The translations under genes and the position numbers were made by a program. The notes under the pieces are model-generated. The model saw only the letters and a list, made by a program, of their open reading frames with translations, did not search any database and was not told where the DNA came from. Shown here piece by piece: positions 49,246 to 59,959 of a stretch of 64,000 nt of DNA. This stretch comes from Flavobacteriales bacterium (lineage in GTDB: Bacteria; Bacteroidota; Bacteroidia; Flavobacteriales; Schleiferiaceae): NCBI GenBank assembly GCA_017795025.1, contig CP051243.1, positions 2,690,897 through 2,754,896 on the forward strand. Reading direction: 5' to 3'. Each line of letters begins with the position of its first letter. The stretch's first letter is position 1.

Positions 49246-49343
49246 TTTCCCGTTTATCGTGTTATAATATCTTCTAGTCGAAAGATTTAGAGGAGATTAA
49301 ATGCCGTGCTGCACATTTGCCTTGTAATAGAGATTATAGGGTA

Positions 49344-51002
49344 ATGTTAAGTATTGATCGTATTAAAGTTCCGGTATTCCTGCTGGTGGTGGCCATGGCC
49401 TCCGTGGTAGGTATTAACCAATATCACTTTGGGATGTGGAACCAGTATATTTCGTTACCCTGGTTGTACGAAATCTTAGATCCTTCTTCTTTTCCGAACG
49501 ACTTACTAGTAGAGCAGTACAGTAATTCTCCCACCTTTTTCTTATTGCTTTTAAAAGCGGCACTTCCCTATTTTGGCAATAATATTCCGCTTCTTTTCTT
49601 TAGTGTTTACATCGTATTTCTGGGCTTAACCGTCTATGCTTTTTACAAAATGGGTCGGGTCCTGTTTAATTCGGCCGAGGCCGGAATTTTAGCAGTGGTA
49701 TTGCTAAGCTTTGCCTTTCCAGTTATTGGCGATGTGAGTTTGTGGGATACCCTCTTAATGGAGCGCACTATTGCTTTCCCAATTTTACTCTTCAGCTTAT
49801 TAAATATTTATAAGGGTCGTATGTGGTACGCCACCTTGCTTTTAGCTTTGGCCTTTAATATCCACCCCTTATCCGCTATTTACATTGCAGCAGCGGCAGG
49901 TGTCGCCTTGCTTTTCGCAGATGGCTTTAAGAAGGAATACCTCTGGCAGATCTTCTTTTTCATCTTAATGATTAGCCCGGTATTGATCTTAAAATTTACC
50001 ACCGCTAGTAGTGCCGAGTCTTCTTTAACTTTTTCCGAAACCTGGATGGAAGTAATGCGCATGCGTAATGGTCACCATACTTTCCCATCCGAGTTCCCAC
50101 CGATGATCTTTGTAAAAACGGCCTTCTTACTTATCAGTTTTTTTGTGATTGTGGAAATGGGCAACTTTGATTCACGGGCCAAGAAGTTTCTAAAGGCCTT
50201 TGGATGGACAATTATCGCAATGATGGTCATTGGTACGGTATTTACCGAAATCCTTCCGGTGAAATTGATTATTCAATTCCAGTTTTACCGTGCCTTTCTT
50301 TTCTTAGGAACTTTAACCTTGGTCTTATGGGCCGGGATGTTAATCACTAACCCTAAGCCCGTGTTTTATTTATTGGCCCTGCCTATTTTGGCCCAGTACG
50401 TTTACGGGGAGTGGGCAAAAACTATTTCTGCTTTAAGCTTAATTGGCTCAGCTTGGTTTTTAATTCGCTTTATTGGCTTTCGCCAGAAAAGCACCCTAAG
50501 TTTATCCATGGCTTACTTCGTGCTTGGCGCTTTGGGTTTAATTATGCGGGGTGGCCTGGATATTCACCAAGGCAGTCAGGAAAAAGATTGGTACGAAGTA
50601 CAGGACTGGTTCCGCGAAAATACCGCTCAGGACGCCTTAGCGATTGTGCCTCCGGCCGAAGCTGGTTTTAGGGTGCGCAGTATGCGTAGTTCTTATGGCG
50701 ATTGGTTTGATGGCACGAAAGCCTTTTTTAGTGAGGAGTATGCCGAGTACTGGTTAGATCATATGACCAATTTGAACTGCACGGATCCCGAGCAATTAGT
50801 AGAGAGCTATAGTGCTTTAGATCGCAGCGATTTTATGCGCATTTGGGATCGTGAGGAGCACAAACACAGCGAAGGTTATATTATTCATTATGCCAACCGA
50901 AGTGTTGAGCAATTGCCAGTGGCTTTTGTGAATAATCGATTTGTAGTGTATCAATTACCCTCCAAAGAGCAGCCGGTATTCTTGGCTAGCTTAGATCAAT
51001 AA
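49344..51002 (+). CDS. Polytopic membrane protein of unknown function, GT-C-like
   Basis: 552 residues from ATG 49344. About eleven membrane segments fill residues 10-410, followed by a soluble C-terminal part of about 140 residues containing WYEVQDWFRENTAQDAL and AGFRVRSMRSSYGDWFDG. The first loop has DPSSFPNDLLVEQY, an acidic loop after the first helix as in GT-C glycosyltransferases, and the protein resembles DUF6798-type proteins; neither link is firm. It overlaps the convergent lipoprotein gene by 7 bases. Confidence 0.7.
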   Translation: MLSIDRIKVPVFLLVVAMASVVGINQYHFGMWNQYISLPWLYEILDPSSFPNDLLVEQYSNSPTFFLLLLKAALPYFGNNIPLLFFSVYIVFLGLTVYAFYKMGRVLFNSAEAGILAVVLLSFAFPVIGDVSLWDTLLMERTIAFPILLFSLLNIYKGRMWYATLLLALAFNIHPLSAIYIAAAAGVALLFADGFKKEYLWQIFFFILMISPVLILKFTTASSAESSLTFSETWMEVMRMRNGHHTFPSEFPPMIFVKTAFLLISFFVIVEMGNFDSRAKKFLKAFGWTIIAMMVIGTVFTEILPVKLIIQFQFYRAFLFLGTLTLVLWAGMLITNPKPVFYLLALPILAQYVYGEWAKTISALSLIGSAWFLIRFIGFRQKSTLSLSMAYFVLGALGLIMRGGLDIHQGSQEKDWYEVQDWFRENTAQDALAIVPPAEAGFRVRSMRSSYGDWFDGTKAFFSEEYAEYWLDHMTNLNCTDPEQLVESYSALDRSDFMRIWDREEHKHSEGYIIHYANRSVEQLPVAFVNNRFVVYQLPSKEQPVFLASLDQ

Positions 51003-51454
51003 ACCCGATTGGGACTTAAGTTTGTAAATCGCAAGGTATAGCTGAGGCCCCAAGAGTTTCGGAGTCGAATAACCGCATTCAAATTTCCAAGATAAGTGGA
51101 AGGCACTTCTCTAATCACGAAGCTAAGGTTGTCTTGATTTAATACCTGAAAGCCTTGCTCGAACTGGGAGCTGCTGCTGATAAGGCTGTCGCCTCTGTAA
51201 AACCAAATTCTTTCGGCCTTAAGCCAGGCAAAGGTTTGCCCCTCCTCTTCCCGATACAAGCTTAATATGGCATAAGGCTTACCATTAGCACCGGGCATGG
51301 CGTTTTCAATAATTTGAAAACCGCAGGACCATTCATCACCGAATAGTTCAAGTTTCGAATCTGGGGCTTGCTTGCGCGGTTTAGGTGCAAATAAAGCCGA
51401 AGCACACGAACTTAGGCTCAGAGTAGCTATTAGGATGATGGCTAGCTTTTTCAT
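50996..51454 (-). CDS. Small hypothetical lipoprotein (last gene of the TetR-ABC operon)
   Basis: 152 residues from ATG 51454, overlapping the upstream gene by 4 bases. Lipoprotein signal with lipobox LSSC. The rest is a compact beta-rich domain; no family recognised. Position suggests it belongs with the eight-gene envelope operon, perhaps as an accessory or unrelated passenger. Confidence 0.62.
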   Translation of the reverse strand: MKKLAIILIATLSLSSCASALFAPKPRKQAPDSKLELFGDEWSCGFQIIENAMPGANGKPYAILSLYREEEGQTFAWLKAERIWFYRGDSLISSSSQFEQGFQVLNQDNLSFVIREVPSTYLGNLNAVIRLRNSWGLSYTLRFTNLSPNRVY

Positions 51455-52080
51455 AGGTCCTGCCAAGCGATGGCCAAGCGGTTTTGAGCCACCGACTCGC
51501 CTTCAGCGCCCGGATAAAGGATTAAGCTATCTGCCGAAAGGCAAAAAGGAATCGCATATTCACGGCCCCTTTTAAAGGCCTGTTCATTAAAGCTTCGACG
51601 GCTATCTTCTGCGGCCCAGTTTTTAAATTCCTTTAAAACTTTAGCGTAAATGGTATCGCCTAAGACTAAGTCAAGGGGCGGAGCAAAAACTTCGGGCAGT
51701 TGCAAGGTTACCGGAAAGTAGGTTTTATAGGTAGGGCTTTGGCTGTTCTCTTTACTGCTGCGTATAATCTCAAGGCTTATCAAACTATCACTAAGACTGA
51801 GCAGTCGATAATGGGCGAGGATAACTTTCCGTCCCTCTTGTTCCTTTTCCAAACACGCGGCAAGCTCCCGCTCTAAGTGCAGCGCTTCGCGGAAGTAGCG
51901 ATTAATACCCAGAGAGGTCATACTATCACTTATTCCAATAATTCGGGGGTACTGCTGATCAATGAGGCAATTTTCATCGTCTATCAGCACGCGAGACTCG
52001 GTTTGCACTTGATATGGTGACCGGGGTTCGCAGGCACTAAAAAGCAATACGCTTAGGCTAAGCCAGAGGAAATTTCGCAT
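51451..52080 (-). CDS. Lipoprotein, DUF3298/RsiV-like
   Basis: 209 residues. Lipobox FSAC. The pattern YPRIIGISDSMTSLGINRYF at the start of the domain and SADSLILYPGAEGES...AIAWQDL at the end resemble DUF3298 (RsiV-type) domains. The family includes lysozyme-binding anti-sigma factors, but this copy has no membrane helix or cytoplasmic domain. It is 12 bases after the barrel gene, within the operon. Confidence 0.65.
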   Translation of the reverse strand: MRNFLWLSLSVLLFSACEPRSPYQVQTESRVLIDDENCLIDQQYPRIIGISDSMTSLGINRYFREALHLERELAACLEKEQEGRKVILAHYRLLSLSDSLISLEIIRSSKENSQSPTYKTYFPVTLQLPEVFAPPLDLVLGDTIYAKVLKEFKNWAAEDSRRSFNEQAFKRGREYAIPFCLSADSLILYPGAEGESVAQNRLAIAWQDL

Positions 52081-52092
52081 TGGCTAAAGGTA

Positions 52093-53283
52093 CTAAAATG
52101 ACCATTTTAGTCGAAGGTAAGTAGCGCTAACTAGCGCTTGCCACTGATTTTCGGCTAAGGGATTTTCGGAAATAAAAAACTGCCCTGCCAAAAGGAGGTC
52201 TAAATTGGTTTTTAAGGAGTAGCTAAAGCTGGGAAAGAGAATAGTGCTGTTCGCATCGGGGCTGTACATTAAAGCCAAGGTTCCGCTAATCAGCGGGTTA
52301 AAGGCATAGTTGGCGTTTATCACTGCTGTTTGCCGAAAAATAAAGGGGTTTTTAGGGCTTAATACCTGACCGGCACCGAGATTGCCAAAGTCGCCAATGC
52401 CGCCTTCTTGTGCGGCGCTTTCATTGTAGAGGTAGCCTAGCGAAACATAAAGCCCATTGCTAAACACATAGTCCAAATCGCTGCTAAAAATGAGTGCTTC
52501 AAGGTTTTGCTCATTGGTTGGCCAATAATAATTTAATTCTCCTTTAAAGCCCAAATTCCAGAGGCTACCAGCCCAACCGCCACCAAGCGTGATATTACCA
52601 TTGTAATAGCCTCCGAGGGCTTGCAAATCGTAAATAAGGGCATTGTTGCGAAAGCGAATGGCTGCGGTGGAGTTTTCGATTTTTTCGGCCGGGGCTAGGG
52701 CCAGTTCCAATTGACTGTTGAAATTGGGGTAATACTGCACCCGTAAGGCATCGGTACCCGGGCGTTCTTCGTAATCGAAATCAAAAAAATTGTACTGGTT
52801 CAGGATGTCGTTGGGATTAAAAATACCGGTAATCCCCCAGTTTATTCTTTGGCGGCCTAGGCGATAGGACCAATCGCCACTTTCATACTGCAGCCAGGCC
52901 CGATCAAAGATGGTGTGCAAAACCACCTCATCGCTACGCCAATACAAGAAGCTTAAATCGACTAACCCGCGATCTTGATCTAGGGCATCGAGGAAGACAT
53001 CCCCTTGTGCGGGGCTATTTCCCTGAAACAGCCGATTTCGCATACTTAGGGCACCGGTCCATTTCCCTTTAAAATACTTTAGGTTAAAACGGTTGTGTAG
53101 GAGTTGATCATAGCTTTCGGTCTCCATGTTGTCTTTTAGAGGAGGAGGGAAAAAGTTGCGATTAAGAACCGAGTAGGAACCTAAATACTTGAGATAACCA
53201 TTAAACTCCCAAGGGCTTTCTTCTTGACTTTGAGCCTGCAGGCTGAGGCTGATACAAAGCAATATGAGAAGCCAGCGTGTCAC
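52093..53283 (-). CDS. Outer-membrane beta-barrel (porin-like) of the TetR-ABC operon
   Basis: 396 residues. Signal peptide ending LQAQSQ. Alternating strands rich in aromatic and glycine residues continue to the C-terminal LRLKWSF, a barrel-type end. GRQRINWGITGIFNPNDIL resembles a motif of DUF1302-like outer-membrane proteins, which occur next to lipid-related exporters in Proteobacteria. It overlaps the ATPase gene by 4 bases, so it probably forms the outer-membrane part of the ABC system. Confidence 0.78.
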   Translation of the reverse strand: MTRWLLILLCISLSLQAQSQEESPWEFNGYLKYLGSYSVLNRNFFPPPLKDNMETESYDQLLHNRFNLKYFKGKWTGALSMRNRLFQGNSPAQGDVFLDALDQDRGLVDLSFLYWRSDEVVLHTIFDRAWLQYESGDWSYRLGRQRINWGITGIFNPNDILNQYNFFDFDYEERPGTDALRVQYYPNFNSQLELALAPAEKIENSTAAIRFRNNALIYDLQALGGYYNGNITLGGGWAGSLWNLGFKGELNYYWPTNEQNLEALIFSSDLDYVFSNGLYVSLGYLYNESAAQEGGIGDFGNLGAGQVLSPKNPFIFRQTAVINANYAFNPLISGTLALMYSPDANSTILFPSFSYSLKTNLDLLLAGQFFISENPLAENQWQALVSATYLRLKWSF

Positions 53284-53963
53284 GAGCGGGTATCGTTTTT
53301 AATTTTCCCATCTTCCACGTAAATAAGCCTTTCGGCGCGATCAATCACCCGCTGATCATGGGTGGAGAATAAAAAGGTAATCCCTTCTTCTTTATTAAGA
53401 CGGTGCATAATGTCCAGAAGGTCCTCCGTGCTTTTGGAGTCGAGGTTAGCAGTAGGTTCATCGGCTAAAACAAAACTAGGCTTAGAGGCTAATGCCCGGG
53501 CTACCGCAACCCTTTGTTGCTGTCCTCCACTTAATTCGGATGGACGCTTATGCATTTGATTTTCGAGCCCTACCGCGGTAAGCAATTCCTTGGCCCTTGC
53601 TTCTCGCAATTGGGGTTTTTCGCCTTGCAGCAACATTATAAACTCCACATTCTCCTGGGCAGTTAAAACGGGAATTAGGTTATAGGCCTGAAACACAAAT
53701 CCTATGTGCTGAAGCCGAAAGTTGATCAATTGGTTGTCTTTCAGCTCGTGGATTGCCTTACCATCTACAATTACGGTTCCTTCGCTGGGGCTATCCAAGC
53801 CACCAATAAGGTTAAGTAAGGTGGTTTTCCCCGAACCGGAGGGTCCAATGATGGCTGTAAATTCACCAGCCTTAACGGATAAATCTATTTGGTCGACCGC
53901 GCGAATGAGACTTTCCCCATCTTGGTAAACACGGCTTAAGTTTTTAGCTTCAATTACTGACAT
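53280..53963 (-). CDS. LolD/MacB-type ABC transporter ATPase
   Basis: 227 residues. Walker A GPSGSGKTT, Q-loop FVFQAYNLIPVLT, signature LSGGQQQRV, Walker B FVLADEPTANLDS and switch His in STHD. It has the features of the MacB/LolD/FtsE group, which drive mechanotransmission rather than classical transport. It partners with the two FtsX-like permeases upstream; the gap is 10 bases. Confidence 0.92.
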   Translation of the reverse strand: MSVIEAKNLSRVYQDGESLIRAVDQIDLSVKAGEFTAIIGPSGSGKTTLLNLIGGLDSPSEGTVIVDGKAIHELKDNQLINFRLQHIGFVFQAYNLIPVLTAQENVEFIMLLQGEKPQLREARAKELLTAVGLENQMHKRPSELSGGQQQRVAVARALASKPSFVLADEPTANLDSKSTEDLLDIMHRLNKEEGITFLFSTHDQRVIDRAERLIYVEDGKIKNDTRS

Positions 53964-53973
53964 TTCAAAGTTC

Positions 53974-55197
53974 TTAAAGGGTTCGCATGGTTTCGATAGG
54001 GTTGAGCTTTAGCGCATGTCGCGCAGGGTATAGGGCCGAAAGGAGGGTCATGATAAAAACGATAGAGGCCGTGCCCCAATAAAAGCTTTCGGGTAGCGAA
54101 GGGTAAATAATAGTTCCAATACCATAATTGGAAAGCCCATCGCCAAACATGGCTAGGTTGAGCCCATGTTCTTGACTCGCCATTATGCTTAGGTGTCCGG
54201 CCAATATCCCCAAGGGGCCACCGAGCAAAGCCAAAAACAAGGTTTCGAGAATAATCATGGCGAATACCCGAGACTTACTCATGCCTACACTCATTAACAT
54301 CCCCAACTCTTTACGGCGTTCGAGTACGGCCATCAGCATGGTATTAATGATGCCGAAGGATAGGGCCAACATGATAATTCCAATCACGAAATAAAGGCTG
54401 GTTGACATGATTTCATCAGCGTAAGCAAGTTCGGGCGCTAGTTCTTTCCAGCTCTCTACCAAGGTCTTGGGGAACTTAGCCTGGGCCTTTGCCCTTAAGG
54501 CATCCACCTGCTTATCGTCTTCGAGCAAAAAGGCTGCTTCATGAAAATCATCGGGCTCCAGCCCCAGTAAATTCTGTAGATCGGAGGCATGCACAAATAC
54601 TTGCATCATCTCTACCTGGGAAGAAACATCATGATAAAAACCCTTTACCTTAAAGGAGGCCGAGATCAAGTTTTGTTTGGAATCGCTAAAACTCAGAATA
54701 ACGCGGGAACCAGGTTTTACTTCAAGTTTTTCGGCCAAGGCTTCACCAATCAAAATGGGGTTTCGCCCTTTCCGCTCCGAGAAATACTGTCCACTATCTA
54801 CCCGGTTTCCCAAGCCCGTAAGTTCATTTTCGAGCTGGTGTTTAATACCAATTATTTGCACACCACCACTGTAATGCGCCGTGGCCGCCATGCCATTTAC
54901 GCGCAAGCGCGGAGCAAATTTTTCCACTCCTTGCTCTTGGAACCAGTTGATTAGTGTTTCGGGCTTCTGGAGTAAATACTCCACTTTTGGCTCTTCATTC
55001 CATTGCGGCTGATGCACTTGAATATGCGAGATTTGGTTCTCGATCATACTTACCTTCCGTTGATCGTTTAAGCCAAAGCTGAAGGCACTCACAAACACGC
55101 CAGACCAGATACCCAGTACGATGGAAATAATGACCACCAAACTTCTAAGCTTATTGCGCCATATGTTGCGCCAAGCAATTTTGATTAGAGTTTTCAT
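53974..55197 (-). CDS. FtsX/LolC-type ABC permease (second)
   Basis: 407 residues. N-terminal membrane helix (about 15-40), periplasmic domain of about 230 residues, then three C-terminal membrane helices with the conserved ALSFGIINTMLMAVLERRKE region and the ending ALYPARHALKLNPIETMRTL. This is the four-helix LolC/E/MacB topology. It overlaps the other permease by 4 bases; the two differ enough to form a heterodimer like LolC/LolE. Confidence 0.9.
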   Translation of the reverse strand: MKTLIKIAWRNIWRNKLRSLVVIISIVLGIWSGVFVSAFSFGLNDQRKVSMIENQISHIQVHQPQWNEEPKVEYLLQKPETLINWFQEQGVEKFAPRLRVNGMAATAHYSGGVQIIGIKHQLENELTGLGNRVDSGQYFSERKGRNPILIGEALAEKLEVKPGSRVILSFSDSKQNLISASFKVKGFYHDVSSQVEMMQVFVHASDLQNLLGLEPDDFHEAAFLLEDDKQVDALRAKAQAKFPKTLVESWKELAPELAYADEIMSTSLYFVIGIIMLALSFGIINTMLMAVLERRKELGMLMSVGMSKSRVFAMIILETLFLALLGGPLGILAGHLSIMASQEHGLNLAMFGDGLSNYGIGTIIYPSLPESFYWGTASIVFIMTLLSALYPARHALKLNPIETMRTL

Positions 55198-56414
55198 CGG
55201 CGCATGGCTTTAACAGGGTTTAAACGGAAGATGGAGACAATCGCATAAAGGCTTACAATAAGGCTTATAATCAATACAATGCTGCCGTGGGTAAACCATA
55301 TTTCGGGGTCAATGCTAAAGGGCATCAAGGGTTCCATACCGTAGTCTTCCATCATTGCATCCATATCGCCGCTTAACTCTATGGGATTGTTGTGATAATA
55401 GAGGGCAATTGGGAGGGCAAATAAACTTCCGGTAAGAATCCCCAGAAAGCTAAGGAAGGTAGTCTCCATAAAGGTGCTCCAAGCCAAGCGCAAGCGGTTC
55501 ATCCCGATGGATAAGAGAATGCCAAATTCCGGCTTACGTTCGGCGGTAAGCATCAAAATAGTGCCGAGCATCCCAAAGCCAATCACCAAGTAAAGGATGA
55601 ATAAGATCGCTAGGCCCCCGGCACTATCCGCTTCCATGGCTTCAATCAGCTCGGGCATCATCTCACGCCAAGTAAGCATTTCGGTGGAGCTCGTATCAAT
55701 CTTCGCCGTCAAGCGATTTTTTAATTGATCCAGTTCATTGTGATCTTCGGGAATAATAACCTGAGCGCATACCTGTCCATAGGCTCCCGTGAGGAATTGC
55801 AATTCTTTTAAGTCGAAATAAACGGTCGATTTATTCGCTTGCGGGTTTTTTAGATCGGCAATGCCCAAGACGGGATATTTGCCATTGGCACTCATGCCAT
55901 GATATCCTTGGCCAATCACAACTAAGGTGTCCCCGACATTAAGCTTCAAGGACTCTGCAAGCTTTTCGGCCAGGGTAACCCCAGTTTCGCCGCTTTGGGG
56001 TAGTCGGCCGGCTATTAGCTTTTCATTGAGATTGAAATATTGCGATTCGAGATGGGCATTTACCCCTCTTAAAAAGCCGGGTTTCGTTTCACTTTTATCG
56101 CTGGCCAGTAGGGCAAAACTTTCCAGGCGAGGTAATAAGGCGACCACTCCTTCTGTGTTTTCGATAGCTTGACGCTGAAGGGAGTCAGGAGCAAAACTTT
56201 TTTCTAAACTCTGTTTGTCCCAGTAGCCCTTAGCCTGCCATTGCATATAGCCTGTGGTAGCATTAATTACGGAGGAGTAGGCTAGGTCGTAGGTACCCAG
56301 TTGCATGCTCCGCATGATGATCGCAAAAAATAGGGCAAAAGCTACCGAAGCCAAGGTGATAAGGCTGCGTCGCTTATTACGCCATATGTTTCGCCAAGCG
56401 ATTTTAACTAACAT
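55194..56414 (-). CDS. FtsX/LolC-type ABC permease (first)
   Basis: 406 residues with the same four-helix layout as its partner: WRNIWRNKRRSLITLASVAF at the start, a periplasmic domain, IGFGMLGTILMLTAERKPEF and the end FRLNPVKAMRR. One base separates it from the LolA-like gene upstream. Its periplasmic domain could receive or hand over a substrate to the LolA-like protein. Confidence 0.9.
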   Translation of the reverse strand: MLVKIAWRNIWRNKRRSLITLASVAFALFFAIIMRSMQLGTYDLAYSSVINATTGYMQWQAKGYWDKQSLEKSFAPDSLQRQAIENTEGVVALLPRLESFALLASDKSETKPGFLRGVNAHLESQYFNLNEKLIAGRLPQSGETGVTLAEKLAESLKLNVGDTLVVIGQGYHGMSANGKYPVLGIADLKNPQANKSTVYFDLKELQFLTGAYGQVCAQVIIPEDHNELDQLKNRLTAKIDTSSTEMLTWREMMPELIEAMEADSAGGLAILFILYLVIGFGMLGTILMLTAERKPEFGILLSIGMNRLRLAWSTFMETTFLSFLGILTGSLFALPIALYYHNNPIELSGDMDAMMEDYGMEPLMPFSIDPEIWFTHGSIVLIISLIVSLYAIVSIFRLNPVKAMRR

Positions 56415-56415
56415 C

Positions 56416-57162
56416 TTAACGTACGCGTTTCATGTATTGGGTGGTAAAATGCTCCCTCGGGATATTTACTTTAAAGTCGAGTTGATGATACTCTAAAATG
56501 GTTTTATGACCCGGCTCAGCCACCGGCTCCATGACCAAAATAATTGGGAGGACCTTACCCCCAAGGTTGCCAATTTTTTCGGCAGTCATAACACTCACCA
56601 AGTCTCCCTCCTCATCGTAAAACTCGGTCTTTAAGTGCAGGTACTCCGCTTGATCAATATGCAGGACCACCTTACCCCAAACTACCGCTGCGTCTTCTTT
56701 GGGGCGAAGTTCGATTTTCCAGGCTTTACGGCCCTTAATTTCAACCTCTCCGATAAGTTTATGGGTATAGTCTTTTACCAGTGAGGATTCGGTAACCAGG
56801 TCGTCGTTGGTAAAGTCGGAGCCCATCCAGCTTTGGTTCATCATGCTGGGCGGGAGCTTTATTTGGCGCTCAATACTGGGAATCCAGTTGTAAATTTCTT
56901 TGTTCTTCTTTAAAAAGACAGTGCCTTTATCACGAGCGGGATGGGTGATAAGAATGAGGGAGTACTGGTTACCTCTGCTCCAGCTTTTCATGCGGATGGT
57001 GCGGTTCCAGGCCGGTCTAACGATGGTCATGGACATCTCTGCATAAGACTGCTCCCCGCGCAGTTTGTCTTCTGCTTTTTGCACAATGGTGGCTGGATCT
57101 TCCTGCGCTGCTACATGCAGTCCTCCAAAAAGCAGGCTGATGCTTAATAGAATGGTTTTCAT
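56416..57162 (-). CDS. LolA-like periplasmic protein (outer membrane lipoprotein-sorting family)
   Basis: 248 residues with a signal peptide ending LHVAAQ and no lipobox, so a soluble periplasmic protein. A LolA/LolB-type half-barrel is indicated by SMTIVRPAWNRTIRMKSWSR and the conserved segment IKLPPSMMNQSWMGSDFTND of the COG2834-type sorting protein family. It should carry a hydrophobic cargo across the periplasm. It overlaps the TetR gene by 4 bases and precedes the ABC permeases. Confidence 0.87.
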   Translation of the reverse strand: MKTILLSISLLFGGLHVAAQEDPATIVQKAEDKLRGEQSYAEMSMTIVRPAWNRTIRMKSWSRGNQYSLILITHPARDKGTVFLKKNKEIYNWIPSIERQIKLPPSMMNQSWMGSDFTNDDLVTESSLVKDYTHKLIGEVEIKGRKAWKIELRPKEDAAVVWGKVVLHIDQAEYLHLKTEFYDEEGDLVSVMTAEKIGNLGGKVLPIILVMEPVAEPGHKTILEYHQLDFKVNIPREHFTTQYMKRVR

Positions 57163-57734
57163 AGCTCGTATTTGTTTAAGATTTTTTGATGCATGGCATC
57201 CAGTGGATAGTCTTTACCCAAGGCTAAAAACCCTAGGGCGGTGCCATCGATAAGGGCGCCAAATGCATAGGCCTCGGCCAGTGGATTTTCGTAGTCTAAG
57301 TCTCGGAAGAGATCGGCGTAAACCTCAATGTTGGTGAGTTTTTGCGATGCAATTAAGTCCTTGAGGTTTTCCGTTACCTCGGGCTGCAAAGCTAGAGAGG
57401 TCATGAACCGCATCGTATCGGGCTGCTCCTTAATAAAGCCAATGGTCATGTCGATCGTGACCTTAAGCTTCTCCTTGGCCGATTTACCCTCCCATAGGGA
57501 CTCAATGCCATCGGCCATAGCCATGAGCATTTCGAAAATGCCATATAATAGGTCTTCCTTAGATTTAAAGTAATGGTAGCTCAGTCCTTTCGAAATTCCG
57601 GCCTCCTTAGCAATGTAGCTCATGCTTGCCGAGCCATATCCCTTTTCGGCAAATGCCTTGAGGCCAGCCATTAAAATTTGCTGACGGGTTTGGGCGCGTT
57701 GCGCTTCGTTTTGGGCTTTGTTTCGCGGACTCAT
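57159..57734 (-). CDS. TetR-family transcriptional regulator
   Basis: 191 residues. N-terminal helix-turn-helix (about 18-65: TRQQILMAGLKAFAEKGYG, ISKGLSYHYFKSKEDLL) and a helical ligand-binding domain. As first gene of the operon, with operator-like repeats over its promoter, it probably represses itself and the transport genes until a ligand (perhaps a fatty acid or other lipophile) binds. Ligand identity is inference. Confidence 0.92.
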   Translation of the reverse strand: MSPRNKAQNEAQRAQTRQQILMAGLKAFAEKGYGSASMSYIAKEAGISKGLSYHYFKSKEDLLYGIFEMLMAMADGIESLWEGKSAKEKLKVTIDMTIGFIKEQPDTMRFMTSLALQPEVTENLKDLIASQKLTNIEVYADLFRDLDYENPLAEAYAFGALIDGTALGFLALGKDYPLDAMHQKILNKYEL

Positions 57735-57735
57735 C

Positions 57736-57799
57736 TTTTCATTGAACGATTGGTCAAAAGTATAAAACCTCTTTTAACTGACCAAGTGTTCAATGAAAA
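57736..57799. promoter_or_regulatory. TetR operator pair and operon promoter
   Basis: Outer arms TTTTCATTGAAC (57736-57747) and GTTCAATGAAAA (57788-57799) are exact inverted copies. Each arm sits in a site that is itself roughly palindromic: TTGAACGATTGGTCAA (57742-57757) and CTGACCAAGTGTTCAA (57778-57793). Between them on the minus strand is a promoter: -7 TACTTTTG (57755-57762) and -33 TTG (57783-57785) with a 20-base spacer. Site 2 covers the -33, and site 1 touches the -7 and covers the expected start of transcription, so bound TetR would block the promoter. Confidence 0.78.
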
Positions 57800-57802
57800 A
57801 CT

Positions 57803-59959
57803 TTAGAACCAGAAACCTAGGCGAACGTAGGCGTAGATGTCGTCGTGATTGGTGCTGCCAGCGACATTTAACTCCATGGGGCCAATGATGGAGTTATAGG
57901 TATAACCTAAACTGTAGCCATCAAGAAGAATGTCGGAGGCAAAAATGTCTTCCAGGGTGGGCTCAAGCTTGGCAAAGTTTGCTTTCAAGTGGAAGTAGTG
58001 ATTCTTAAAGGCTTCATAGTTAAGATCGGCGCGTACCATTACCAGATTTCGTCCGGATAGCTCCCAAAAGCGATAACCGATAAAAGGCTGAATGTAGTTG
58101 ATGTAGGACTGTCCCATGCTACCTAAGTGAATCCGATAAGGTTCATCTAGACCTGGGCCAATGGTACTTGCTCCATATAGGCGGCTTACTAAGGACCAGT
58201 TTTTACCAATGGCCACCGCCTGCCTTAAGGAGAGGTCGATTATGGAACTGGGTTCTCTAAATACTTCAAAGCCATCTCTTTCTGCAATAATTCGATAGCT
58301 GGCGTTTAATTGGATTCCTGATTTAGGAAAATTGGCATCATCGAAGGAGTCGAAATCGATAAAACCATAATAGTTAATAAAGCCCTTTTGGAAGCGCTCG
58401 AAATTGGCAGCATCAAAATTTTGGGTGATGCCAATATCTTCAATTTGCAACCCCCCGCCAATAGCATAAGCATCGCGCCAAGTGGATTGTAAGAAGATGT
58501 CGAGTGAGTAGTCCTGATAGATGCGCTCGTTCTGAGCAATGCGGTTTTGATAATTTTGATAACGAAAACGGTAGGAGCGCAATTTTAAGCCGAGCGTGGG
58601 AATAAACCCGCGGTCCACGAAATAGCTGATCTCTCCACGGGGCATATCGCCCAGCGCTAAATCAACACTAAGACGAGAGTTTTTAAATAAGAGATTGCGG
58701 TTGGTATAATTTACCAAGAGGGCGGCATTAAAGTCGTCGCTGTAGTTGATTCCCACTTTTAAGGACTGGAAATAGTCTTTTTCGCGCAGGTTTATATTAA
58801 GGGTATAGCCCGTATCAGCAGGGATGAGGGTATAATCGATATTATTAAAGTACTGCGTACCATAGAGTTGGTCGAGTCCTTTTTCTAGGCGATCGATGCT
58901 GCATACCCTTTCTTCGCGAACCCGAAGTTTTCCCTTTACAAAGTTGGAGGTTAAGCTTTGTAGTCCGTTTACCTGAATATGATGTACATAGAACTCTTCC
59001 TTTGGCAGGGCTTTTTCAATTTTTCTTTTGGGGCCTTTATCTCTTTCGGCAAGCGCCACTAGGTCGTCCCAGTGCTTGCGGGCTTCTGCTTCTCCGGCCG
59101 CCACGATTTCATCGAAAAGCTCGAAAGTGGTAATTCCCGCTTCTGGGATTTTGGGCGTAATCCAAATGTCACTAAGGTTTTTGCTAAGACCAAGGTTTCG
59201 GGAGTTAAGGAAAGCGGAGGTTTGCTCTAGAACCCGCACCACACTGTTTAACTCCGAACGGTCGTTGAGGTAGTCCTGCATATCAACGCCTATGATAAAA
59301 TCCATTCCCTTTTCGGTCATGGTGGTAATGGGGTAGTTCATCACTACGCCCCCATCGATGTACAGGCTATCTTCAAAAAGGTAGGGTGTAAAAAGGGAGG
59401 GAAAGGCAGAGCTGGCCCGCAAGGCATCTATTAGTCGGCCCTGCTCGAAGGTTCTTAAATGGCCCGTTTCCAAATTGGTCGCCACACAGAAAAAGGGAAT
59501 GGGCAGTTCCGAAAAATCAATGTAGGGGTAACTTTGCTGGGTTATGGTGCTGAGTTCCTTCATGATGTACTGCGCAAAGTTTACCCCCCGAGGGATTTTA
59601 ACTCCGGAGCTATCGATGGGGAAACTCAAAACATAGCGAGAGTCCGCTTTGCGATCAAAAAAGCTCAGGCGATTGCGGGGTACTTCATTACTTAGTAGGG
59701 CGTCCCAATTAACCTGACTCAAGTATTTTTCAATTTCATTGGCGCTGTAGCCCAGGCTATACATGGCGCCTACAATAGCTCCCATAGAGGTGCCGCCAAT
59801 GTAATCTAATTGAATCCCTGCCTCCTCTATCACCTTTAAGGCCCCAATTTGCGCCATGCACTTGGCCCCACCACCACTTAAAACCAAGCCAATTTTAAGG
59901 TCTTCTTGTTGAGCCTGAAGGCCAAAACTTAAAAGCAGTATCAGGGTCAGTTTTTTCAT
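57803..59959 (-). CDS. Patatin-like phospholipase with Omp85-type outer-membrane barrel (PlpD-like)
   Basis: 718 residues. Signal peptide ending GLQAQ. Patatin domain (about 22-310): LVLSGGGAK, nucleophile Ser58 in GTSMG, and Asp in DGGVVMNYP. A POTRA-like domain (about 325-395, FYVHHIQVNGLQSLTSNFV) precedes a 16-strand-type barrel ending in YVRLGFWF. It probably exports or displays its own phospholipase domain (type Vd). The oxyanion region reads GGGAKC rather than the common GGGAKG. It overlaps uvrC by 4 bases. Confidence 0.9.
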   Translation of the reverse strand: MKKLTLILLLSFGLQAQQEDLKIGLVLSGGGAKCMAQIGALKVIEEAGIQLDYIGGTSMGAIVGAMYSLGYSANEIEKYLSQVNWDALLSNEVPRNRLSFFDRKADSRYVLSFPIDSSGVKIPRGVNFAQYIMKELSTITQQSYPYIDFSELPIPFFCVATNLETGHLRTFEQGRLIDALRASSAFPSLFTPYLFEDSLYIDGGVVMNYPITTMTEKGMDFIIGVDMQDYLNDRSELNSVVRVLEQTSAFLNSRNLGLSKNLSDIWITPKIPEAGITTFELFDEIVAAGEAEARKHWDDLVALAERDKGPKRKIEKALPKEEFYVHHIQVNGLQSLTSNFVKGKLRVREERVCSIDRLEKGLDQLYGTQYFNNIDYTLIPADTGYTLNINLREKDYFQSLKVGINYSDDFNAALLVNYTNRNLLFKNSRLSVDLALGDMPRGEISYFVDRGFIPTLGLKLRSYRFRYQNYQNRIAQNERIYQDYSLDIFLQSTWRDAYAIGGGLQIEDIGITQNFDAANFERFQKGFINYYGFIDFDSFDDANFPKSGIQLNASYRIIAERDGFEVFREPSSIIDLSLRQAVAIGKNWSLVSRLYGASTIGPGLDEPYRIHLGSMGQSYINYIQPFIGYRFWELSGRNLVMVRADLNYEAFKNHYFHLKANFAKLEPTLEDIFASDILLDGYSLGYTYNSIIGPMELNVAGSTNHDDIYAYVRLGFWF

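Follow-up and report, generated by a model that had tools for sequence, protein, structure and literature searches.

A conserved Bacteroidota cassette of LolA-like carrier, ABC transporter and outer-membrane barrel, a candidate exporter of hydrophobic molecules

On the minus strand of a 64,000-nt stretch of contig CP051243.1 (the window, whose positions are used for the operon coordinates below), eight close-packed open reading frames (ORFs) at 50996-57734 include a conserved transport cassette. At its core, a carrier resembling LolA (PF17131) is joined by a pair of FtsX/MacB-type permeases (A and B), a LolD-like ATPase and an outer-membrane barrel. These genes are kept together as one conserved set in a genome that has LolA1 and LolC-like genes elsewhere. 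The cassette has permeases without a loop of the length found at the LolC Hook, and lies behind a local, conserved operator-like site. In our judgement it probably, and by no means certainly, exports a lipid or a hydrophobic small molecule across the envelope under inducible control, a reading in which we infer both the substrate and the direction of transport.

Results

Architecture of the operon

The first-pass annotation of this DNA described an eight-gene minus-strand operon joined by 4-bp overlaps or short gaps, and all ORFs and junctions were confirmed:

57159-57734, minus strand: TetR-family regulator, 191 amino acids (Pfam TetR_N, 3.5e-15)
56416-57162, minus strand: LolA-like soluble periplasmic carrier, 248 amino acids (Pfam PF17131, 184.4 bits, cut-off 30, 2.1e-54)
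55194-56414, minus strand: FtsX/MacB_PCD permease A, 406 amino acids (Pfam FtsX and MacB_PCD)
53974-55197, minus strand: FtsX/MacB_PCD permease B, 407 amino acids (Pfam FtsX and MacB_PCD)
53280-53963, minus strand: ABC ATPase, LolD/MacB-like, 227 amino acids (Pfam ABC_tran, 3.4e-37)
52093-53283, minus strand: predicted outer-membrane beta-barrel, 396 amino acids, OprD/AlgE-like fold (AlphaFold model and fold matches)
51451-52080, minus strand: lipoprotein 1, 209 amino acids, lineage-specific, partly RsiV/DUF3298-like (weak model)
50996-51454, minus strand: lipoprotein 2, 152 amino acids from the ATG, lineage-specific (lipobox by eye)

Four 4-bp overlaps join the TetR gene to the carrier gene (57159/57162), permease A to permease B (55194/55197), the ATPase to the barrel (53280/53283, with a GTG start) and lipoprotein 1 to lipoprotein 2, the last given a lipoprotein 2 start at ATG 51454, to which the upstream TTG at 51466 is an alternative. 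Gaps of 1, 10 and 12 bases separate the carrier from permease A, permease B from the ATPase, and the barrel from lipoprotein 1. The carrier has, by eye, a signal peptide without a lipobox, and its solved relatives are 3buu, 9tp6, 4z48 and 3bk5. Inspection by eye likewise gave the signal peptides, a lipobox in each lipoprotein and, in the ATPase, what we take to be its Walker A, signature and Walker B motifs. Neither Pfam nor further profile searches gave a family above cut-off for the barrel or for either lipoprotein.

Conservation of the cassette

Relatives of permease A were collected with one profile scan, and the best 80 of the 283 found are the 80 loci discussed here; five of them (L055-L059) appear to be the same as five same-genus loci of the near set described below, and the two sets are not independent. 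The order carrier, permease A, permease B, ATPase, barrel is kept in 60 of the 80 loci, a count that includes L092, where the barrel reaches the contig end and an extra ATPase lies upstream. Another 14 are cut by contig ends (L077, L084, L085, L090, L091, L096, L101, L110, L111, L112, L114, L119, L128 and L129) and 6 depart from the order: L070 and L099 lack an upstream carrier, L075 and L117 lack the barrel, L094 has just the carrier and permease A, and L106 is rearranged. Conservation of the core order on this scale is more than chance. Thus the conservation across Bacteroidota that the first-pass annotation had set as its check was found, and a non-conserved gene order was not borne out.

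Gene by gene, matches were present for the carrier in 74 of the 80 loci, permease B in 75, the ATPase in 72 and the barrel in 64. Lipoproteins 1 and 2 matched in only 3/80 and 2/80 loci, which rules them out as core parts, and their earlier placing as integral members of the system has to be given up. No recurrent neighbour able to encode a protein cargo was seen in the 80 loci, and no family outside the core, which might have hinted at a substrate, occurred in more than 6 of them, with families present in 4-6 loci not taken up individually. Complete sets extend beyond Bacteroidota to Balneolota (L089), Ignavibacteriota (L100) and Neomarinimicrobiota (L134), and some of the orthologs belong to named strains of Gracilimonas and Echinicola.

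Closer to the window, PF17131 was above its cut-off in 14 of 30 genomes (the window's own included), and the carrier and both permeases occurred together in 12 (L039-L050) of the 13 non-window loci. The ATPase came next in 11 of these 12. The sole ATPase match in L039 was weak (32% identity), lay 2.5 kb further on, adjoined another ABC permease, and may belong to a different transporter. A TetR gene was present in 8/12, and L041 has a MarR-type gene instead. Across the phylum, PF17131 was above cut-off in 156 of 395 genomes, all partner types taken together. A permease match lies no more than 4 kb from at least 87 of the 150 PF17131 places listed, and these fall in 86 of 116 genomes; this is a lower bound, counted among the matches listed, where permease rows are mainly the stronger one per locus.

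Several further features of these loci were recorded. Five of them (L072, L079, L107, L124 and L134) have two permease A-type genes plus permease B. L104 (Thalassovita) and L127 (Thalassobius), labelled Pseudomonadota, also have the cassette, through horizontal transfer or as mis-binned metagenome-assembled genomes. In one relative an Mpo1-like gene (2-hydroxy fatty acid dioxygenase family, L092:6789-7253) abuts the carrier gene. In the window itself, a 718-amino-acid patatin-like phospholipase-POTRA-Omp85_2 barrel fusion lies directly upstream of TetR on the same strand (57803-59959), and the gene of a convergent DUF6798 membrane protein (49317-51002) runs 7 bases into that of lipoprotein 2 at the 3' end; each has a relative in 5/80 loci.

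Carrier phylogeny and other engines

In a maximum-likelihood tree of 86 carriers, a branch supported at 100/100 divides all 50 cassette carriers from the rest; the tree is unrooted, has several long branches, and has its cassette group chosen by nearness to the permease. The other rows comprised 14 RND-linked carriers, 12 linked to other ABC permeases, and 10 for which the profiles used found no engine. Of the 73 carrier rows available for the 80 loci, alternate ones went into the tree, which omitted L139, L157, L169, L168 and L174 and holds 83 different rows among its 86 (some genomes occur twice). Two of the alignments contain 64/67 and 44/73 rows from the 80 loci, plus the window.

Sixty-three PF17131 places had no near permease, and 40 of them were examined. 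These gave 12 loci with another FtsX-type permease, 13 with an RND pump, 12 with neither (one of which, L168, is cut by a contig end and has a permease A remnant) and 3 where no carrier ORF was found, including L139, which has an RND match, and L157, which has permease and ATPase matches. A second FtsX-type permease set adjoins the PF17131 carriers of L140, L142, L143, L145, L147, L153-L155, L161, L162, L164 and L173, mostly in the order ATPase, permeases, carrier, with carriers outside the window's clade.

The Bacteroidota RND/MMPL operons, represented by PG1175-81 (PMC10434189) and by L038 and L135-L138, resemble the cassette in having a PF17131 carrier beside a pump, and differ from it in their RND engine and in carriers that lie outside the cassette clade. 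L038, the thirteenth near locus, has a MarR-type regulator, an RND-type pump, a carrier and a weakly matching barrel. Barrels matching the window-barrel profile weakly (21-113 bits) were found in 11 of the 14 RND loci, and the pairing of carrier and barrel may thus be old, with different engines serving it. According to PMC10434189, MMPL operons with LolA-like genes in Porphyromonas and Prevotella also hold ABC ATP-binding proteins and are strongly induced by iron limitation. For the MMPL branch, this makes uptake or a siderophore-like cargo possible.

Promoter, operators and regulator

Three candidate control elements lie upstream of the TetR gene:

57755-57762, minus strand: promoter -7-like element TAnnTTTG, here TACTTTTG (T, A, T, T, T, G invariant)
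57742-57757, no strand assigned: candidate operator 1, with the imperfect palindrome TTGACCAATCGTTCAA, which overlaps the -7-like box and is also found in front of TetR genes of relatives
57778-57793, no strand assigned: candidate operator 2, 36 bp from operator 1, with two mismatches to the pattern

We take TAnnTTTG to be the -7-like promoter consensus, and its T, A, T, T, T and G positions were invariant in 11/11 aligned upstream regions. Across the 3.44 Mb genome, operator 1 alone fits the pattern without a mismatch. Operator 2 was recognisable by eye in six same-genus upstream regions and not in four more distant ones, and these four keep a TTGACTGACCGTTTAGTCAA-type palindrome at the place of operator 1. 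With up to two mismatches the pattern occurred genome-wide at 11 sites a strand versus 7 for a reversed control, so no regulon is claimed; with three mismatches, 4 sites were found in the window versus 2.75 expected, which as a count is chance level. These predicted TetR operators fit local autoregulation. The class of regulator varies between loci, with a MarR-type gene in L041, a MerR-type gene in L123 and a weak MarR-like match in L117.

Such local, ligand-responsive regulators that differ by lineage (TetR, MarR, MerR) would also suit a drug or toxin efflux system of the same architecture, in which an exogenous hydrophobic substrate induces TetR. The patchy distribution of PF17131 noted above points the same way, and there is a precedent in AmeABCD, described in PMC6394551 as an HAE3 RND system of Castellaniella whose AmeB belongs to the LolA superfamily (DUF1329) and whose AmeA is a DUF1302 protein; its deletion lowered monoterpene tolerance and increased Nile Red influx into CCCP-treated cells. 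We nevertheless consider efflux unlikely, since the eight genes include no periplasmic adaptor or TolC-type duct and a soluble carrier would be an odd choice, albeit one with AmeB as a LolA-superfamily counterpart.

As described in that source, AmeABCD shares with the cassette the combination of a LolA-superfamily periplasmic protein (the window carrier has a weak DUF1329 match, 25.2 bits), an outer-membrane protein and an inner-membrane engine. It differs in that its engine is of the RND type rather than ABC and in that AmeC has no counterpart here; there is no RND pump among the eight genes, and MMPL matches lie elsewhere in the genome. MacAB-TolC has the same MacB-type permease fold, whereas the cassette has a separate 227-amino-acid ATPase and two different permeases, and Pfam gave no MacA-type adaptor or TolC family among the eight genes. 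In mycobacterial LprG-Rv1410, a periplasmic lipid carrier is likewise paired with an inner-membrane transporter, but the engine belongs to the MFS and LprG is a lipoprotein. LprG-Rv1410 is not known to have an outer-membrane barrel partner.

Separation from the housekeeping Lol system

Like LolCDE-LolA, the cassette combines an FtsX/MacB-type heterodimer, a LolD-like ATPase and a soluble carrier of LolA fold. The genome's LolA1 is elsewhere, at C1:729993-730616 (NF053572, 184.4 bits, cut-off 100; PF16584 gives 16.3 bits at the same place), and PF03548 (LolA) had no match in the genome at E 0.01. The carrier of the operon, a PF17131 protein, fell below the LolA-family cut-offs: against LolA1_Flavo it scored 14.5 bits where 100 are required, and against LolA3 17.3 where the cut-off is 83.

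Against the lolCE equivalog (cut-off 362.45), the permeases of the operon scored ~139 and 79.9 bits, less than two LolC/E-type permeases elsewhere in the genome (159.5 and 158.7 bits); the cut-off was missed by the genome's other permeases too, and was passed in only 2/14 control genomes. One of these two, the LolC-like permease of L051, sits directly after an ORF that we read as RbfA-like, and we take an RbfA-like neighbourhood to be a marker of LolC in Bacteroidota. An MMPL/RND-type protein (L051:1494-3695) lies ~1.3 kb upstream of this pair. For LolD (TIGR02211, cut-off 307.75) the operon ATPase scored ~243 bits and the best ATPase elsewhere in the genome 279.7, so that none passed.

In Escherichia coli the Hook and Pad of LolC recruit LolA (PMC9457489). 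The loop at the Hook site, compared as loop length in a sequence alignment rather than as structure, has 17 residues in E. coli LolC, 16 in LolE and 16 in the RbfA-linked L051 permease, and 11 residues in 78/78 rows of permease A; permease B has 11 in 66/67 and 10 in 1/67. The cassette differs from LolCDE-LolA further in having a channel-like barrel and its own regulator. On this sequence evidence the operon is distinct from the housekeeping Lol system, as the first-pass annotation had proposed: LolA1 and LolC-like genes are encoded separately, and neither permease of the operon has a hook-length loop. The possibility that these are the genome's only lolCDE/lolA-type genes is ruled out by LolA1 and the other LolC/E-type permeases.

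The same data bear on whether the operon is a duplicated Lol system specialised for sorting a subset of outer-membrane lipoproteins, perhaps its own two. Permease B is closest among solved structures to LolF/LolE, the ATPase is LolD-like at 243 bits, two lipoproteins are co-encoded, and a specialised role has been proposed for LolA2/LolB2 of Flavobacterium (PMC11885536). We judge this sorting role quite improbable, given the rarity of both lipoproteins among the 80 loci, permeases without a hook-length loop, a carrier far below the LolA1_Flavo and LolA3 cut-offs, and a lipoprotein 1 that models, at low confidence, as RsiV/DUF3298-like rather than as LolB. The lipoprotein 1 model, built from four sequences, is weak (pLDDT 64.8). 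Its best Foldseek match was RsiV (5jen_A, E 2.6e-8, TM-score 0.39). All six matches below E 0.001 fall on RsiV, two DUF3298 proteins and a Fervidobacterium protein that is uncharacterised, with E-values from 2.6e-8 to 3.2e-4 and query-based TM-scores of 0.31-0.43. A LolB-like identity for lipoprotein 1 is therefore weakly rejected.

The barrel

The barrel was modelled confidently as an outer-membrane protein with an OprD/AlgE-like channel fold. We base this assignment on the AlphaFold model (61 sequences; pLDDT 91.2, pTM 0.84, 19 strand segments by DSSP), on fold matches to outer-membrane channels, and on a C-terminal aromatic residue in 60/60 relatives (Phe in 49, Tyr in 11). VIA-align placed OprD/Occ channels first (OpdQ, 3t24_B, Z 24.1, root-mean-square deviation 3.0, 295/396 aligned), with AlgE (7acg) at Z 22.6 (deviation 3.5, 303 aligned), and Foldseek alone placed Campylobacter MOMP at the top (E 2.6e-12). 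The 61-row barrel profile had no sequence match in the PDB up to E 5, and at E 0.1 the OprD family was absent from the Pfam matches of the barrel. Of the 19 invariant or near-invariant residues in 143-179, 14 lie within 146-176, a long segment between two strands in the model, which suggests that this segment is a folded-in constriction.

Import or retrograde transport, in which the barrel would take up a lipophile and the carrier deliver it to the ABC complex, is the least probable explanation that we weighed: the barrel is closest in fold to OprD/Occ channels, which serve uptake, and the iron-limitation response of the Porphyromonas/Prevotella MMPL operons with LolA-like genes (PMC10434189) is typical of uptake, but the exporter AlgE is nearly as close in fold, and the solved relatives LolCDE (PMC9457489) and MacB act outwards.

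Discussion

We favour inducible export of a lipid or small hydrophobic molecule because the gene order is conserved, the cassette carriers form a single clade, the Lol genes are separate, no gene for a protein cargo recurs, the barrel has a channel fold, the operator is local, and AmeABCD offers a parallel. In such an exporter, TetR would bind two operators over its own promoter and be released by the inducing lipophile as its ligand. The complex of permease A, permease B and ATPase would extract the lipophile from the inner membrane, and the soluble LolA-like protein would, as its fold family suggests, shield it across the periplasm. The carrier would then hand over to the barrel, which would receive or release the lipophile at the outer membrane, a step suggested by conserved linkage and by fold.

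Several observations weigh against this reading. L070 and L099 have a permease and no carrier match in 8 and 6.6 kb of upstream sequence. The barrel, proposed at the outset as part of the set, is usual (64/80 loci, and 9/12 near loci) but not universal: it was not found in L039, L049 or L050, nor in L117 despite 6 kb of downstream sequence. A TetR-like match was present in 40/80 loci, in one of which (L095) it lies ~5 kb from the carrier, and L041 and L123 use MarR-type and MerR-type genes instead, so TetR control does not extend to the cassette in general. The genome's other LolC/E-type permease, L052, also has an 11-residue loop, so that a short loop by itself fails to distinguish the operon from every Lol-like gene; and with the longer loop missing, the carrier may just as well dock in a way unlike that of LolA. 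Finally, the channels nearest to the barrel in fold, those of the OprD/Occ type, take up hydrophilic solutes. What stands of the first-pass description is a regulated set of engine, carrier and barrel that is conserved in order and separate from housekeeping; the lipoproteins and general TetR control do not.

More tentatively, the exporter may represent an unnamed, phylum-wide class in which a PF17131 shuttle, a channel of its own and an ABC engine that lacks the LolC-type hook would carry a lipid other than a lipoprotein out to the outer membrane or the surface. Evolution would have combined the pair of shuttle and barrel with engines of unrelated kinds, ABC or RND. All the parts are members of known families or similar to them; what sets the cassette apart is the combination, the hook-less permeases and the breadth of distribution. 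In the open-licence literature we came across no paper that seemed to describe this ABC arrangement, which may be in print elsewhere.

By what route lipids other than lipopolysaccharide and lipoproteins arrive at the outer membrane has long been an unanswered question. The cassette is compact, with engine, shuttle and usually barrel in one operon, and in this lineage its own operator, and it is directly testable. Our analysis also suggests that some of the proteins annotated as 'outer membrane lipoprotein-sorting protein' work in systems with a task other than lipoprotein sorting.

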